Shown in pieces: positions 1 through 5,125 of a stretch of DNA of 64,000 nt. Each line of letters begins with the position of its first letter. The first letter of the stretch is position 1. The position numbers and the translations under genes were made by a program. Where the stretch lies: positions 1 through 64,000 of the forward strand of contig JADLBL010000011.1 in NCBI GenBank assembly GCA_020847735.1. Direction: 5' to 3'. Source of the DNA: Candidatus Eisenbacteria bacterium. GTDB taxonomy: Bacteria > Eisenbacteria > RBG-16-71-46. The notes beneath the pieces were generated by a model, which had not been told where the DNA came from, did no database searches, and saw nothing but the letters and a program-made list of their open reading frames with translations.

Positions 1-99
1 GCCTGCGGGTTCCGCAGCCGCGCGCGCTTCCGCATCGCGATCTACTTCCACTGCGGCGGACTCGACCTCTACCCCGCCTGCGCGTGGTCAGGCGCATGA
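1..99 (+). CDS. C-terminal tail of an unidentified gene, 5' end outside the window
   Basis: Frame 1 is open from the first base to a TGA at 97-99, giving 32 residues rich in Arg and aromatics with the motif [12 protein letters not shown] cannot name the family. The position at the edge of a mobile region makes a transposase tail possible, but that is only an impression. It lies just outside the tRNA-derived 13-base repeat at 128-140. Confidence 0.3.
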
Positions 100-127
100 T
101 TCCAGCCACACCATTCTCGGAAGCCCC

Positions 128-140
128 CGGGTTATGAGCC
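128..140. repeat. 13-base copy of the tRNA-fMet anticodon arm (possible att remnant)
   Basis: CGGGTTATGAGCC at 128-140 is identical to bases 5083-5095 inside the minus-strand initiator tRNA. It covers the CAT anticodon and the 3' side of the anticodon stem. The flanks do not match. An identical 13-mer 5 kb from the tRNA is unlikely by chance and could be the far-side crossover product of an element that entered the tRNA gene. No integrase gene remains between the copies. Confidence 0.45.
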
Positions 141-171
141 GGACTGTCTGGGTGGGCACGGGTCGGACGAG

Positions 172-450
172 GTGCGGGCCGCGGTGCGGTGCCTCCAGAA
201 GATGACATCGATGACCTGGACCGACGTCTTCAGGACAGGGGGCAAGCAGCCACAGAGCAGGACCGGACTACACTGGACGGTCTACCCCAACTCAGCGCTT
301 AGAGGCGTCACTCGTCCGGCGAACCTGAGTCCTGACGTCCGCATCGTCGGGATCCGAGCGTCCGAGCGTCAGCGCATCTTCGGCGCGCACCTTGACGACG
401 CCTTTTACGTGATCTGGTTCGACCGTTGCCACGGCATCGTCCCCGCCTGA
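172..450 (+). CDS. Small conserved-looking hypothetical protein
   Basis: This 92-codon ORF starts at GTG 172 and its frame stays open further upstream, so the N-terminus is uncertain and may be truncated. The C-terminal half reads like a folded domain and ends in YVIWFDRCHGIVP, a WFDR-x-H pattern I associate with small uncharacterised proteins near mobile genes. No catalytic motif or membrane segment is visible. It sits 297 bases before the AIPR gene, inside the putative island. Function is unknown. Confidence 0.5.
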   Translation: MRAAVRCLQKMTSMTWTDVFRTGGKQPQSRTGLHWTVYPNSALRGVTRPANLSPDVRIVGIRASERQRIFGAHLDDAFYVIWFDRCHGIVPA

Positions 451-747
451 CGGGCCCAGCAGCAGTTCCTCGACTTTGGCGCCGAGCGCGTGGCCGGTTC
501 ATGCGCATTCTTCGGCGGTCCAGCCGGGACGCGCGGTAATTGCCCTTCCCTGGAGTCGCTTGACGAACTGCAGTCCAGGGACCTCCCCGTAGCCTGGCCC
601 GCCGAGATGCGCCGCACTCCACGCTTGACTTCGGTGTGCCGCAGAGCGGAGACTGCGCCCCGTCGCGCCAAATAGGCCGACGCCAGCTGCAGGGGTCCAC
701 CCTCAGTTGGGCACAAGGCGAATCGCCTTTGCGATTGGAGCGCCACC
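451..747. other. Intergenic stretch before the AIPR gene
   Basis: No convincing gene. Short ORFs here lack a ribosome-binding site and protein-like composition. TTGGAG at 735-740 is the ribosome-binding site of the next gene. I see no clear promoter. Confidence 0.4.
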
Positions 748-1944
748 ATGGCCGCTACGACCCATCTGACTTTCCCCGTTGTTTCGTTCCGCCACCTCGA
801 AACCCCGTTTCAGCCGAAGGGGTTCCGCGACTACTTCGCGATCGTCGAGGTGAAGAATCTTCCCGATCTCACTGATTGGCGGAAGATCAACGTTCGTGAC
901 CCGAAGCTCACTGGGTCCGTCCCGCGAGCCATCCGCGACAGCCTGCACGCGAACACGGAGACCTTCCTCTTCCTGAACCGCGGGCTCGTCATCTCGGCCG
1001 CCGACGTGTCGTTCGACAATCGCTCCGGCAAGTTGTCGCTCGTGATGGAGGATCCGAATCTCCATGGGCTGATGGATGGCGGGCACACGTACAAGATCCT
1101 CATCGAGGAGCAGGAAGGTCTCGAGGGGACTCAGTACGTCCGACTCGAGATCATTCAGGGATTCACGAAGGACGACATCCGCGATCTCGTCGACGCTCGC
1201 AACACCTCGAATCAAGTGCGCGACGAGAGCCTGATGAACTTGGCGGGCGAGTTCGACAAGCTCAAGAGGGCTGTCTCCCGTCATCAGTACGCTGAGCTCA
1301 TCGCGTACAAGGAGCACGAGATCATGGAGGACGGTGGCACCAAGCCGATCGACATCCGTGAGATCATCTCGCTGCTCATGGTTTTCGATCGGGAGCACTT
1401 CGATGCTGCCACCCACCCGATCAATGCGTATCGCTCGAAGGCTGCCAGCCTGAACCACTTCGGCCAGAACCGGAGGTCCTTCGAGAAGATCTACCCGCTT
1501 GCGAACGACATTCTCCAGCTCTGGGACCACATCCACCTGCAGCTGCCCGAGCTCTACAACCGGGCGCGCGGGAAGGGAGAGGATGTGAGCGGTGGGAAGT
1601 TCGGGAAGCTCACCGGCGTGGCCATGTACGAGGGCAAGCGCCGCGAACCCCTCTATTTCGTCAAGGGCGATTCGAAGTACAGTATTCCGACCGGGTTCAA
1701 GTACCCGATCCTCGGTGCGTTCCGTGCAATTCTCGAAGAATCTGACGGGCGGTACGTGTGGGGCAAGGGTCTCGACCCTAAGGTGCTGCTCATGTCCGGG
1801 CTCGGGGAGACGCTTGCCGGTATTGTCGGCAACTTCGCTCTCGATCAGCGCAACCCATCGAAGACGGGAAAGTCGGCACTTGTCTGGCAGAGTTGTTATC
1901 AGGCCGCGGAGCTGGTGTACCTGCGGTCGAAGGCGGCGAAGTGA
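748..1944 (+). CDS. AIPR-family (abortive infection phage resistance) protein
   Basis: The 398-residue product matches the AIPR domain pattern. It has a FLFLNRGLVISA segment near residue 72, an LHGLMDGGHTYKIL core near 108, and NTSNQVRDESLMNL near 152. AIPR proteins are known from phage-resistance loci, including the five-gene Mza system (MutL, Z1, DUF, AIPR); their biochemical activity is not settled. ATG 748 follows TTGGAG at 735-740. The next gene begins 20 bases after the stop, so the two probably form an operon. No membrane segment or signal peptide is seen. Codon choice seems slightly less GC-biased than in the core genes downstream, consistent with acquisition. Confidence 0.85.
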   Translation: MAATTHLTFPVVSFRHLETPFQPKGFRDYFAIVEVKNLPDLTDWRKINVRDPKLTGSVPRAIRDSLHANTETFLFLNRGLVISAADVSFDNRSGKLSLVMEDPNLHGLMDGGHTYKILIEEQEGLEGTQYVRLEIIQGFTKDDIRDLVDARNTSNQVRDESLMNLAGEFDKLKRAVSRHQYAELIAYKEHEIMEDGGTKPIDIREIISLLMVFDREHFDAATHPINAYRSKAASLNHFGQNRRSFEKIYPLANDILQLWDHIHLQLPELYNRARGKGEDVSGGKFGKLTGVAMYEGKRREPLYFVKGDSKYSIPTGFKYPILGAFRAILEESDGRYVWGKGLDPKVLLMSGLGETLAGIVGNFALDQRNPSKTGKSALVWQSCYQAAELVYLRSKAAK

Positions 1945-1964
1945 CTTCCGCTAAGGGAGACTCG

Positions 1965-3899
1965 ATGACGCTCTTCGATTCGACGAACGACTCCCATGAC
2001 GGGATGGTCCTTCGCTTCCGAACGGGTGCGGCGATGCCCGCGCGACTTGGCGCGGAGCAGCTGAAGGACGAGATCACGGCGGTGCTCGAACTGGTGAAGA
2101 ATGCCTATGACGCTGATGCCTCGCACGTGCTTGTCGAATTCCGCGAGGGCGAGGTTGGCCAGACGATCACGATTCAGGACGACGGCAGCGGCATGGGGCT
2201 GGACGACCTTCAGGGCAAATGGGCCTGGCTGGCCACCGAGAACAAGATTCGAGACGAGCGTAGTCCGAAGCTGAAGCGGCGGCGCCTCGGACAGAAGGGC
2301 GTCGGTCGGTTCGCCGCGCAGAAGCTGGGCCACACGCTGCTGCTCCGGACGCGGCCCGAGGGGCAGGCGGATGTCTATCAGGTGCTCTTCGATTGGGACG
2401 AGCTGCAGGGCGACCGTGAGCTTGGCGACTACGAGTTTCCAATCAAGATCAAGGGCTCGAAGCTGTATGAGCCCGTGCACGGCTCTCGACTTGAAATCAA
2501 GCCGCTGCGGATTCGGTGGTCGAAGCCGCGATGGGTCAAGCTTCGGGCACAGCTCGCGCAGCTCATCGACCCCGAGGCAGGAGTTGCTGACTTTGCGGTG
2601 GAACTCCGCACACCTTGGCCCGAGCTGAATGGTGTCCTGCGCAACCCGCTCCAGGGAAAAGAGACGCACTCGCTGGAGTTCATGCTGGGCGCGGACGGGA
2701 GCCAGCGCATCGTGCTCACAAAGGATGGAAAGCCGAAGGTCGAGACACGGGCGGTAGACATACCGGGCTTCGGCGCGCTTGGCGGACGGCTTCGCTACTA
2801 CGGCCAAGGCTTCCGCAAGGCCGAGGTCAGCCGGGGTGGTGACGCGGACGCCGACTGGAACATGGGGGTGCGGGTCTTTCGCGACGCGTGCCGCGTGAGA
2901 CCGTATGGAGAGCCCGGACCCGAAGGTGACTGGCTGCAGATCTACCGCACCCGGTACACCGGCGGCAGCCGCTTCCGCCTCAAGCCGCACTACCTCGAGG
3001 GGTCGATTCACATCTCGAAAGACGCGAACCCCGCTCTGCGGGACACGACGAGCCGCGAAGGGATCGAGCTCAACGACTCCTACGCTGAGTTTGCCGAGTA
3101 CGTCAGGTCCATGGTCGGCCTGCTCTCCGACTTTGTCAGGGAAGACGAGGTGCGGGAGGAGCGTTCACGCATGCAGGAGCGCTATCGCAAGGCCCTCGAT
3201 CCGCTTTCCAGCGGGCTCAACAAGCTCAAGAGCGATCGCTACACCAGCGCGGTCGACCGAGCCGACCGGAATATTCGAAAGGCACTGACGGAACAAGGAG
3301 TGAAGGCTGTTCCCGTCGTCAATAACTCGCACTGGGAATGCCTGGACTGCACGGACAGCTGGAAGGCGCCTCGAGACCAGACGCCCCGAATCTGCCGCGA
3401 GTACTCAGTGGGCCGTGACGGAAAGCCCACCGGCAAGGTTGGATGCGGTAGCTCAAACATCCGGCGAAAGGAAAACACGGCTCGTGACGGCCACGACCCC
3501 GCAGGCTTACCAGGTGCGCTGGCCGACCTGCTTGCAGGCAATCCCGCATTCGTGTCAGGTACCCAGCTGAGGCCCGTCATCGACTGGGAGATGGGCGAGA
3601 ACGACGAAGAGGCCGAAGTGAGGACCACCGAGCGCCAGCTCGCGATTAACGGGCGGCATCCTTTGTTCAAGGCGGCGGATTTGCTAGACGGGAACGAGAC
3701 GAAGGAGGGGGAGGCGTTTGAGAACCTCCGTGCCGTCGCGGCGCTGAGCATGCACATCGTCACCTCGGCGGCTCATGCCTGGGCAAAGTGGCACTTCGAG
3801 CAAGCGGGTCGCGAGTTCGAGATCTACCTGGCCAGGCTCACGGAACTCAAAACTGCGTGCCTCGTGGGATCCGCAGCGCAGCAAGTCAGGGACGAGTGA
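1965..3899 (+). CDS. GHKL-type ATPase (Hsp90/MutL/MORC-like), AIPR partner
   Basis: The 644-residue protein has an N-terminal Bergerat-fold ATPase. The N-box is ELVKNAYDADA (Glu42 and Asn46), the G1 motif is DDGSGM near 72-77, and the G2 loop is GQKGVGRFA near 109-117. Near residues 458-500 four cysteines (CLDC, then a Cys in RICREY and one in VGCGSS) suggest a zinc ribbon. A C-terminal helical part follows. ATG 1965 is preferred because AAGGGAGA lies at 1953-1960 and longer starts run into the AIPR gene. GHKL ATPases with AIPR occur in the Mza defence family, but the Z1 and DUF genes are absent here. The stop codon abuts an IS21-like insertion that left the ORF intact. Confidence 0.8.
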   Translation: MTLFDSTNDSHDGMVLRFRTGAAMPARLGAEQLKDEITAVLELVKNAYDADASHVLVEFREGEVGQTITIQDDGSGMGLDDLQGKWAWLATENKIRDERSPKLKRRRLGQKGVGRFAAQKLGHTLLLRTRPEGQADVYQVLFDWDELQGDRELGDYEFPIKIKGSKLYEPVHGSRLEIKPLRIRWSKPRWVKLRAQLAQLIDPEAGVADFAVELRTPWPELNGVLRNPLQGKETHSLEFMLGADGSQRIVLTKDGKPKVETRAVDIPGFGALGGRLRYYGQGFRKAEVSRGGDADADWNMGVRVFRDACRVRPYGEPGPEGDWLQIYRTRYTGGSRFRLKPHYLEGSIHISKDANPALRDTTSREGIELNDSYAEFAEYVRSMVGLLSDFVREDEVREERSRMQERYRKALDPLSSGLNKLKSDRYTSAVDRADRNIRKALTEQGVKAVPVVNNSHWECLDCTDSWKAPRDQTPRICREYSVGRDGKPTGKVGCGSSNIRRKENTARDGHDPAGLPGALADLLAGNPAFVSGTQLRPVIDWEMGENDEEAEVRTTERQLAINGRHPLFKAADLLDGNETKEGEAFENLRAVAALSMHIVTSAAHAWAKWHFEQAGREFEIYLARLTELKTACLVGSAAQQVRDE

Positions 3900-3913
3900 T
3901 GGGCGACAATTAG

Positions 3914-4090
3914 AACCACCGCCCGGCGCCAGACGGCGCGCTGCGCCACCTGATCGATCATGGCGAGGGGATCTCGGCGGCGGCGGTCGCAGCGATCGTG
4001 CACTCGGGCGAGCCGCTGGCGCAGCCGACGGCGGTGACCATCGCCGAGGTGGATCTGGAGCCCTACGACGCGCTGGCGGGGTGTGCGTGA
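3914..4090 (+). pseudogene. istA: istA C-terminal remnant (IS21 transposase)
   Basis: After an in-frame TAG at 3911-3913 the frame is open to TGA 4088-4090. It encodes 58 residues ending VTIAEVDLEPYDALAGCA, the typical tail of IstA. The DDE catalytic core is missing. The TGA overlaps the istB start as TGATG, the normal istA/istB arrangement, so this is a truncated element and not a chance ORF. Confidence 0.65.
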
Positions 4091-4860
4091 TGGCGATGAC
4101 CAGCGCGCTGAAGACCGAGTTGACCCAGCACCTGAAGGATCTGCACCTGCCGACGATCCGTGAATGCTACGCCGAGCAGGCCGACAAGGCGCGCCAGGAG
4201 GACCTTGCGCACGAGCGCTACCTGCTCGAGCTGGCGCGGCGCGAGAGAGAGGTACGCCGGGCTAACCGGATCGCGCGACTACTTCGCGAGTCGCGGCTGC
4301 CGCTGGAGAAGAACCTCAAGACGTTCGACCACAGGCGCCTGCCGGCGCGCGTTCACCAGCAGGTCGAGGTCCTGCTCGAGGGCTCGTTCCTCGGTCGGCA
4401 CGAGAACGTGCTGGCGTTCGGCAACCCCGGGAGCGGCAAGACCCACCTGCTGTGCGCCATCGGCCAGGAGCTGATCGTCCGTCGCCGGCGCCGGGTCTAC
4501 TTCTCCCCGTGCAACCTGCTGGTGCAGGAGCTGCTGGTCGCCAAGCGCGGCCTCAAGCTGGCTCGGGTCCTGAAGCGGCTGGCCGCCCACGACGCGATCG
4601 TGATCGACGACATCGGCTACGTGCAGCAGAACCGCGAGGAAATGGAGGTGCTGTTCGCTCTGCTCGCGAACCGCTACGAGCGCGGCAGCGTGATCCTGAC
4701 CAGCAACCTGCCGTTCTTGAAGTGGGAGTCGATCTTCAAGGATCCGATGACGACGGCGGCGGCGATCGACCGCCTCGTCCACCACAGCGTCATCCTCGAA
4801 CAGAACCTGGCCAGCTACCGCTTGGAGGCGTCGAAGAAGGGCAAAGAGAGCAAGAGCTGA
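4090..4860 (+). CDS. istB: IstB-like ATPase, IS21-family transposition helper
   Basis: The product is 256 residues, a normal IstB length. It has an N-terminal helical region, Walker A GNPGSGKTH near residue 112, Walker B IVIDDIGY near 170, and a sensor region with ILTSNLPF. IstB is a DnaA/DnaC-like AAA+ ATPase that assembles on target DNA and activates the IstA transposase. ATG 4090 overlaps the istA stop. The gene seems intact although its istA partner is reduced to a tail. Confidence 0.9.
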   Translation: MAMTSALKTELTQHLKDLHLPTIRECYAEQADKARQEDLAHERYLLELARREREVRRANRIARLLRESRLPLEKNLKTFDHRRLPARVHQQVEVLLEGSFLGRHENVLAFGNPGSGKTHLLCAIGQELIVRRRRRVYFSPCNLLVQELLVAKRGLKLARVLKRLAAHDAIVIDDIGYVQQNREEMEVLFALLANRYERGSVILTSNLPFLKWESIFKDPMTTAAAIDRLVHHSVILEQNLASYRLEASKKGKESKS

Positions 4861-4878
4861 GGGTCAGAGTCCGGGAGA

Positions 4879-4890
4879 AATAGTTGTCGC
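4879..4890 (+). repeat. IS21 end repeat, copy 1
   Basis: AATAGTTGTCGC, first of two identical direct 12-mers starting 23 bases apart downstream of istB. They are probably transposase-binding repeats of the right end. Confidence 0.55.
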
Positions 4891-4901
4891 CGGCCGGAAA
4901 G

Positions 4902-4913
4902 AATAGTTGTCGC
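4902..4913 (+). repeat. IS21 end repeat, copy 2
   Basis: Second AATAGTTGTCGC. It is followed immediately by TGAT, which also precedes the element on its left side. Confidence 0.55.
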
Positions 4914-5014
4914 TGATCAGCCTTCAGCCGCGGCAGGCCGTTGGGGAACCGCTCCGGTGCTTCGCGAATGCCTCGGCGAGCACGCGGGCCGAAGGGTCGC
5001 CAGAACGACAACGA

Positions 5015-5040
5015 GCCCCGGCGGGTTACCCCACCGGGGC
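5015..5040 (-). terminator. Terminator hairpin of the initiator tRNA
   Basis: GCCCCGG (5015-5021) pairs with CCGGGGC (5034-5040). Read on the minus strand the hairpin lies 9 bases after the tRNA CCA end and is followed by a T-rich TCGTTGTCGTTCT. Confidence 0.55.
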
Positions 5041-5048
5041 ACTCAAGT

Positions 5049-5125
<77 letters not shown>

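Follow-up and report, generated by a model that had tools for sequence, protein, structure and literature searches.

A short AIPR gene beside a paraMORC-type GHKL ATPase gene in a tRNA-Met island of a Candidatus Eisenbacteria bacterium: a candidate restriction-like pair

Introduction

AIPR proteins form a widespread family for which we found no assigned biochemical activity in the literature. MORC and MutL proteins act as ATP-gated DNA clamps, and it has been proposed that the eukaryotic MORC proteins stem from paraMORCs and MORCs of bacteria. AIPR has been listed in the same operon network as the paraMORC ATPases (Iyer, Abhiman and Aravind 2008, PMC2292703), for which, as for the MORCs, DNA looping has been proposed. 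The paraMORC ATPases of restriction-modification (R-M) systems described there share with the GHKL protein reported here an N-terminal GHKL module joined to an S5 domain, intact ATP motifs and a C-terminal extension of their own, as well as a sporadic distribution and an association with R-M genes. Their operons differ from our locus, however, which has no methyltransferase, helicase or identified endonuclease and in which AIPR is the direct partner of the ATPase; nor can the C-terminus of our GHKL protein, with its cysteine cluster and INGRHPL segment, be assigned clearly to any of the five paraMORC families described (PMC2292703).

Other described systems resemble the locus in part. The HEF_HK proteins (Bellieny-Rabelo 2021, PMC8011034) have the same N-terminal HATPase_c_3 module as our GHKL protein, and the closest relatives of that protein share their layout of two ATPase modules and often adjoin C5 methyltransferases, whereas the protein itself has neither the C-terminal histidine-kinase-like HATPase_c nor a response-regulator partner. 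Type II AIPR-containing Z1/PD-(D/E)XK/C5-MTase defence candidates (PMC9523054) likewise place AIPR near a MORC-family protein, but all three of their core genes are absent here. Mza also joins AIPR with a GHKL/MutL-like protein; by curated models the pair's subfamilies differ from those of Mza, and the pair lacks Z1, DUF and sigma factor. Finally, the predicted AIPR structure may resemble the fold of the ParB/Srx switches DndB, GmrS (DUF262) and SspE.

Here we analyse a stretch of 64,000 nucleotides (the window; contig JADLBL010000011.1, positions 1 to 64,000) from a Candidatus Eisenbacteria bacterium, in which a short AIPR gene is followed by a paraMORC/MORC-type GHKL ATPase gene. The chances seem to us about even that the two form a rare two-gene operon acting jointly against foreign DNA in a restriction-like manner, and it is plausible that they represent a new variant of restriction-type defence distinct from Mza. 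A natural two-gene pairing of this kind would be a small, tractable system for studying AIPR activity, for example nucleotide binding via DGGHT, and for asking whether a bacterial MORC-type clamp works without a methylation mark, within the limit that the AIPR-paraMORC pairing has been seen once only.

Results

The pair lies in a small foreign island at a tRNA-Met gene

The two genes are carried by a foreign island of ~4.9 kb, essentially positions 145-5048, which is horizontally acquired and integrated into a tRNA-Met gene. This gene (CAT; 5049-5125, minus strand) is reconstituted at the right edge of the island, and a stretch comprising the tRNA 3' half and downstream terminator-like sequence is duplicated, with the right copy at 4984-5091 and the left copy, ~108 bp with 2 mismatches, at the start of another contig (C22). 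The core from ~6 kb on has a G+C content of 70-73%, whereas the AIPR gene and the greater part of the GHKL gene lie at 59-65%. In relatives, a cytochrome-oxidase (cox) operon is followed by the tRNA-Met and by the core genes found here to the right of 5345; in this genome that order is broken, and the oxidase genes lie on C22. Low G+C, broken core order and the 108-bp duplication together support the reading of this region as small and foreign.

At the left edge, CGGGTTATGAGCCGGAC at 128-144 matches 5083-5099 within the tRNA-Met at 16 of 17 positions, and only 0.07 chance matches to the 13-bp core of this repeat, with at most one mismatch, are expected in the window. The tRNA-derived repeat that had been said to bound the pair is therefore real, and 128-144 proves in addition to be the inner part of a split attachment site, of which GGGTTATGAGCCGGAC (129-144, plus strand) is the inner remnant. 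Adjoining it at 1-128 (plus strand) is the 3' end of a multicopy ISL3-family element, with the contig edge inside the element and its other end starting C22. The element separates this remnant from the tRNA 3'-half copy on C22; since ISL3 ends are found on both contigs and the 8-bp target duplication GGGTTATG on both sides, the ISL3 sits inside the left attachment site. Judged from the sequence, the piece missing between C22 and the window contig should be only an ISL3 copy. Two other readings were discarded: an island that runs on past the left contig edge, in DNA not sequenced, was rejected because both contig ends lie in one multicopy ISL3 and share the 8-bp duplication, and the split site replaced the view of 128-144 as a chance repeat or a separate att site.

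Window positions 1-127 occur at 6 places in the genome, mostly contig ends, and the opposite ISL3 end (C22:1-124) likewise recurs 6 times; a full copy of 1358 bp (C20:216700-218057, L262) encodes DDE_Tnp_ISL3 (E 1e-64). This multicopy element breaks the assembly at several contig ends.

Within the island we recognised the AIPR, GHKL and IS genes only, with no integrase and no methyltransferase, helicase or nuclease gene.

Two intact neighbouring genes encode an AIPR protein and a MORC-type ATPase

The AIPR gene (748-1944, 398 aa, short form) and the GHKL gene (1965-3899, 644 aa) are both intact reading frames on the plus strand, and the 20 bases between them hold a Shine-Dalgarno-like AAGGGAG. 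That these two families are neighbours 20 bases apart, as first proposed, was borne out by Pfam matches, by the frames and by reading the gap. The 20-bp spacing and the good ribosome-binding site suggest that AIPR and GHKL lie on one transcript.

The AIPR protein matches PF10592 (E 3.3e-26; 93.1 bits against a gathering cut-off of 25), as do 61/61 members of the AIPR alignment that we compiled, and it keeps the invariant positions of these 61 sequences, including D110-G-G-H-T114 and A150-R151. Its structure model is of high quality (pLDDT 94.6), and a Foldseek search against predicted viral structures returned, as top named matches, AIPR, the N-terminal domains of GmrSD, proteins of DNA-sulfur modification (DndB-type) and ParB/Sulfiredoxin proteins. 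In the full ranking only the first two matches have E < 1e-3, namely a phage protein that is uncharacterised and an AIPR of viral origin. A PDB fold search with the model gave nothing significant, nor does the protein match the ParB/Srx switches significantly in sequence, and the alignment members show no weak Pfam matches to the ParB, DUF262 or DndB families; the likeness to the switches thus lies in the predicted viral structures. On this resemblance, AIPR is predicted to have a ParB/Srx-like (GmrSD/DndB-like) fold, and we take its DGGHTY motif to be comparable to the DGQHR/DGQQR of the ParB/Srx superfamily switches. Binding of ATP, CTP or GTP is described for proteins of the ParB fold, DndB-like ones among them (PMC12704722), so that nucleotide binding by AIPR is a guess from analogy.

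The GHKL protein matches HATPase_c_3 (E 2.4e-17). Its N, G1 and G2 motifs are intact, as foreseen, and can be read directly from the translation: E42LVKN46 (E42xxxN46), D72DGSG76 (D72xGxG76) and G109QKGVG114 (G109xKGVG114), with Glu42 numbered correctly from the start. Together with the HATPase fold, these motifs identify it as a GHKL ATPase. The AlphaFold2 model is confident to about residue 420, i.e. over the ATPase/S5 part only, and in a Foldseek search of the PDB the MORC2 ATPase with DNA ranked first (E 5.8e-13), followed by SMCHD1, Hsp90 and MutL. Model and matches agree on a GHKL + S5 module of paraMORC/MORC type; a methyltransferase, helicase or nuclease, the other mark of such loci, is missing from the locus. 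The BbrUII/HgiDII-type NCBIfam equivalog scored 66.6 bits against a cut-off of 550, over the N-terminal ATPase region only.

The C-terminal 234 aa, the part in which paraMORC families carry extensions of their own (RE fold, TIR, HxH), were modelled with low confidence and had no convincing relatives. This part, for which close relatives are lacking, contains a C-x2-C...C...C cluster (459, 462, 477, 494) and an INGRHPL segment; the latter resembles that of two 500-aa GHKL proteins (L100, L131). A search with the C-terminus alone gave marginal matches only, none of them in plasmids. We identified no nuclease domain in either protein.

The pair does not fit Mza

One reading of the two genes takes them for a reduced form of Mza (MutL, Z1, DUF, AIPR), in which the same two superfamilies are present. 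The curated MzaE model scored 10.6 bits against our AIPR (cut-off 1050) and the curated MzaB model 16.9 bits against our GHKL (cut-off 850), the AIPR has 398 aa against the 593 positions of the MzaE model, and Z1 (PF10593) has no match in the whole genome, in a search that was positive in the control genome of Corynebacterium glutamicum. The absence of Z1 and of a further DUF gene from the locus was thus described correctly, whereas a derivation from Mza fails on these results and is, in our estimate, extremely improbable. What stands of the proposed anti-phage pair is that both families are tied to restriction or defence loci; the Mza origin and, as shown below, the recurring module do not.

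GHKL relatives lie mainly in restriction-modification loci

The nearest relatives of the GHKL protein share only 19-28% identity with it across the full alignment, and they have a C-terminal HATPase_c that the window protein lacks. Among the 47 relatives sampled (at least ~47 bits), at least 35 had, by our own count, a gene for a DNA methyltransferase or for Vsr in the stretch examined, a figure that is a lower bound because in part of these loci the flanks span ~1.5 kb, where distant AIPR genes could also be missed. The methyltransferase is usually directly upstream of the GHKL gene, and in several loci (L168, L169, L013, L014, L170, L173) one or two genes follow behind it, among whose products are an HNH endonuclease, Vsr or a protein of 430-460 aa.

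In the window, the gene behind GHKL is instead a fragment of an IS21 element, in agreement with the earlier description of a remnant adjoining the pair. Sequence reading places an istA C-terminal remnant of ~60 codons (frame 3) at 3914-4090, followed by a complete istB helper ATPase gene at 4090-4860 (IstB_IS21, E 3.7e-57; NCBIfam 239 bits against 200), both on the plus strand; a repeat search found two copies of a 20-bp repeat at 4871-4913, probably the terminal repeats of the IS21 right end. The element has lost its 5' part, and its scar borders directly on the stop codon of the GHKL gene. Since the scar lies directly behind the GHKL gene, loss of downstream genes is possible, and the pair could be what is left, at the 5' end, of a paraMORC-type restriction operon that was once longer and whose nuclease or other genes were lost via IS21 insertion and a left-end deletion. 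The loss of nearly all of istA and the genes behind GHKL in the relatives above fit such a history, but both frames are intact, the GHKL C-terminus is not shorter than the stretch after the HP motif in L100 and L131, and we recognised no piece of any lost gene; we regard this origin as a minority possibility, with perhaps one chance in four.

The pair was found once

A scan of the whole collection kept 80 AIPR loci, and with these ~90 AIPR loci were covered overall. We found no second AIPR-GHKL pair in these ~90 loci or in the 47 GHKL loci: a search with the window protein, a profile and a motif scan found no GHKL gene beside AIPR in the AIPR loci, the window-protein search returning one marginal 225-aa match 7 kb from AIPR (L078), and AIPR proteins, with the AIPR profile for the wider stretches, found no AIPR in the GHKL loci. 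When 39 AIPR-carrying genomes were searched for GHKL, the matches were mostly weak and confined to the N-terminal ATPase domain; one of these genomes has a 1018-aa GHKL relative beside a C5 methyltransferase. A search of 46 other genomes of the phylum found no AIPR, and viral contigs contain AIPR relatives in 5 cases and no GHKL relative.

The nearest AIPR relatives (48-63% identity) occur in Acidobacteria, Bradyrhizobium, Chloroflexi and Sumerlaea, where their neighbours (IMPDH, RecG, a class I tRNA synthetase of E/Q type, a penicillin-binding protein, TadE/G-like, DUF5131) are mutually unrelated and often housekeeping genes. A co-directional gene lies within 150 bp downstream of AIPR in only 18/72 relatives, and the identities of these genes mostly differ. 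By this sequence survey, short-form AIPR usually stands alone. The neighbourhood survey that the original prediction called for thus found no homologous pair, hence none inside full Mza operons either, and a minimal, separately working unit that recurs receives no support: AIPR relatives adjoin unrelated genes, and the sequences surveyed lend no backing to a conserved two-gene module. With no recurrence of the pair anywhere in the data that we searched, selection for joint function stays conjectural.

The usual solitude of AIPR relatives and the single occurrence of the pair, together with unrelated cargo at the same tRNA in other genomes, would also suit chance neighbours, that is, independent cargo in an integration hotspot, with AIPR a stand-alone abortive-infection or regulatory gene and GHKL an orphan R-M component. 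The 20-bp spacing with its ribosome-binding site, which suggests one transcript, and the R-M contexts common to both families (PMC2292703) weigh against coincidence, and we hold it to be unlikely, at around one in five.

A role other than defence, for example in mobile-element maintenance or DNA repair, was also considered. For some of the GHKL relatives no R-M gene lies nearby, and 5.6-kb enterococcal plasmids carry little cargo other than AIPR and a divergent HTH gene, a content more suggestive of maintenance or regulation; R-M loci, however, hold most GHKL relatives, and such a role appears improbable to us, at about one in ten.

A possible mechanism for a restriction-like pair

Should the two genes form a joint restriction-like operon, we infer the joint action of AIPR and GHKL, its target and its outcome as follows. 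The GHKL-S5 ATPase would close on DNA in an ATP-gated manner, and AIPR, as a ParB/Srx-like nucleotide-binding protein, would serve as a nucleotide-controlled effector or switch that is recruited by GHKL. AIPR lies promoter-proximally, where most related GHKL loci have a DNA methyltransferase, and with AIPR in that place the system would do without reliance on a methylation mark of its own, or would have lost the mark. A bolder version, which we put forward tentatively and consider to have a roughly one-in-four prospect, is a methyltransferase-free AIPR-paraMORC defence module, carried as integrase-less ~4.9-kb cargo at tRNA-Met, in which the ParB/Srx-like AIPR replaces the modification partner and gives the MORC-type clamp target discrimination or killing.

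Other AIPR contexts and the tRNA-Met site

In a minority of loci, mainly in Firmicutes, AIPR adjoins one of three genes, for a Z1 protein, for a C5 methyltransferase or for a protein of 732 aa that recurs. In four loci (L036:11190-13388, L041, L048, L053), AIPR is followed by a protein of ~732 aa that has no Pfam or PADLOC match; the two genes are within ~20 bp of each other in 3/4 of these loci, with an apparent overlap in L048, and in two cases a C5 methyltransferase lies behind the unit on the opposite strand. This unit makes a stronger case than the AIPR-GHKL pair for a two-gene AIPR system that is conserved.

On plasmids, AIPR is often solitary with a divergent HTH gene. The two genes are the main cargo of a 5.6-kb enterococcal plasmid (L007:3822-5416), which hints at a stand-alone or maintenance role of AIPR. 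An Enterococcus faecalis plasmid (L006:5980-10743) carries AIPR followed by the PADLOC candidates PDC-M33A and PDC-M33B (159 and 42 bits) and a weakly DUF6339-like gene, and a Terribacillus plasmid (L002:5992-9870) carries AIPR paired with a Z1 protein, in whose vicinity we found no GHKL. A short, apparently frameshifted AIPR gene stands on a gut contig that is filed as phage (L010:1-4150); its neighbours were named by eye as a fragment of a methyltransferase and as a possible restriction endonuclease and TIR protein.

At the same tRNA-Met, two other genomes of the phylum carry different integrase-less cargo between tRNA 3'-half repeats: ~4.1 kb with Fic, an AbiEi-like antitoxin and one further gene (L214:3777-7975), and ~5.2 kb of unannotated genes (L207:7806-13106). 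The tRNA-Met gene looks like an integration hotspot for cargo islands of 4-5 kb.
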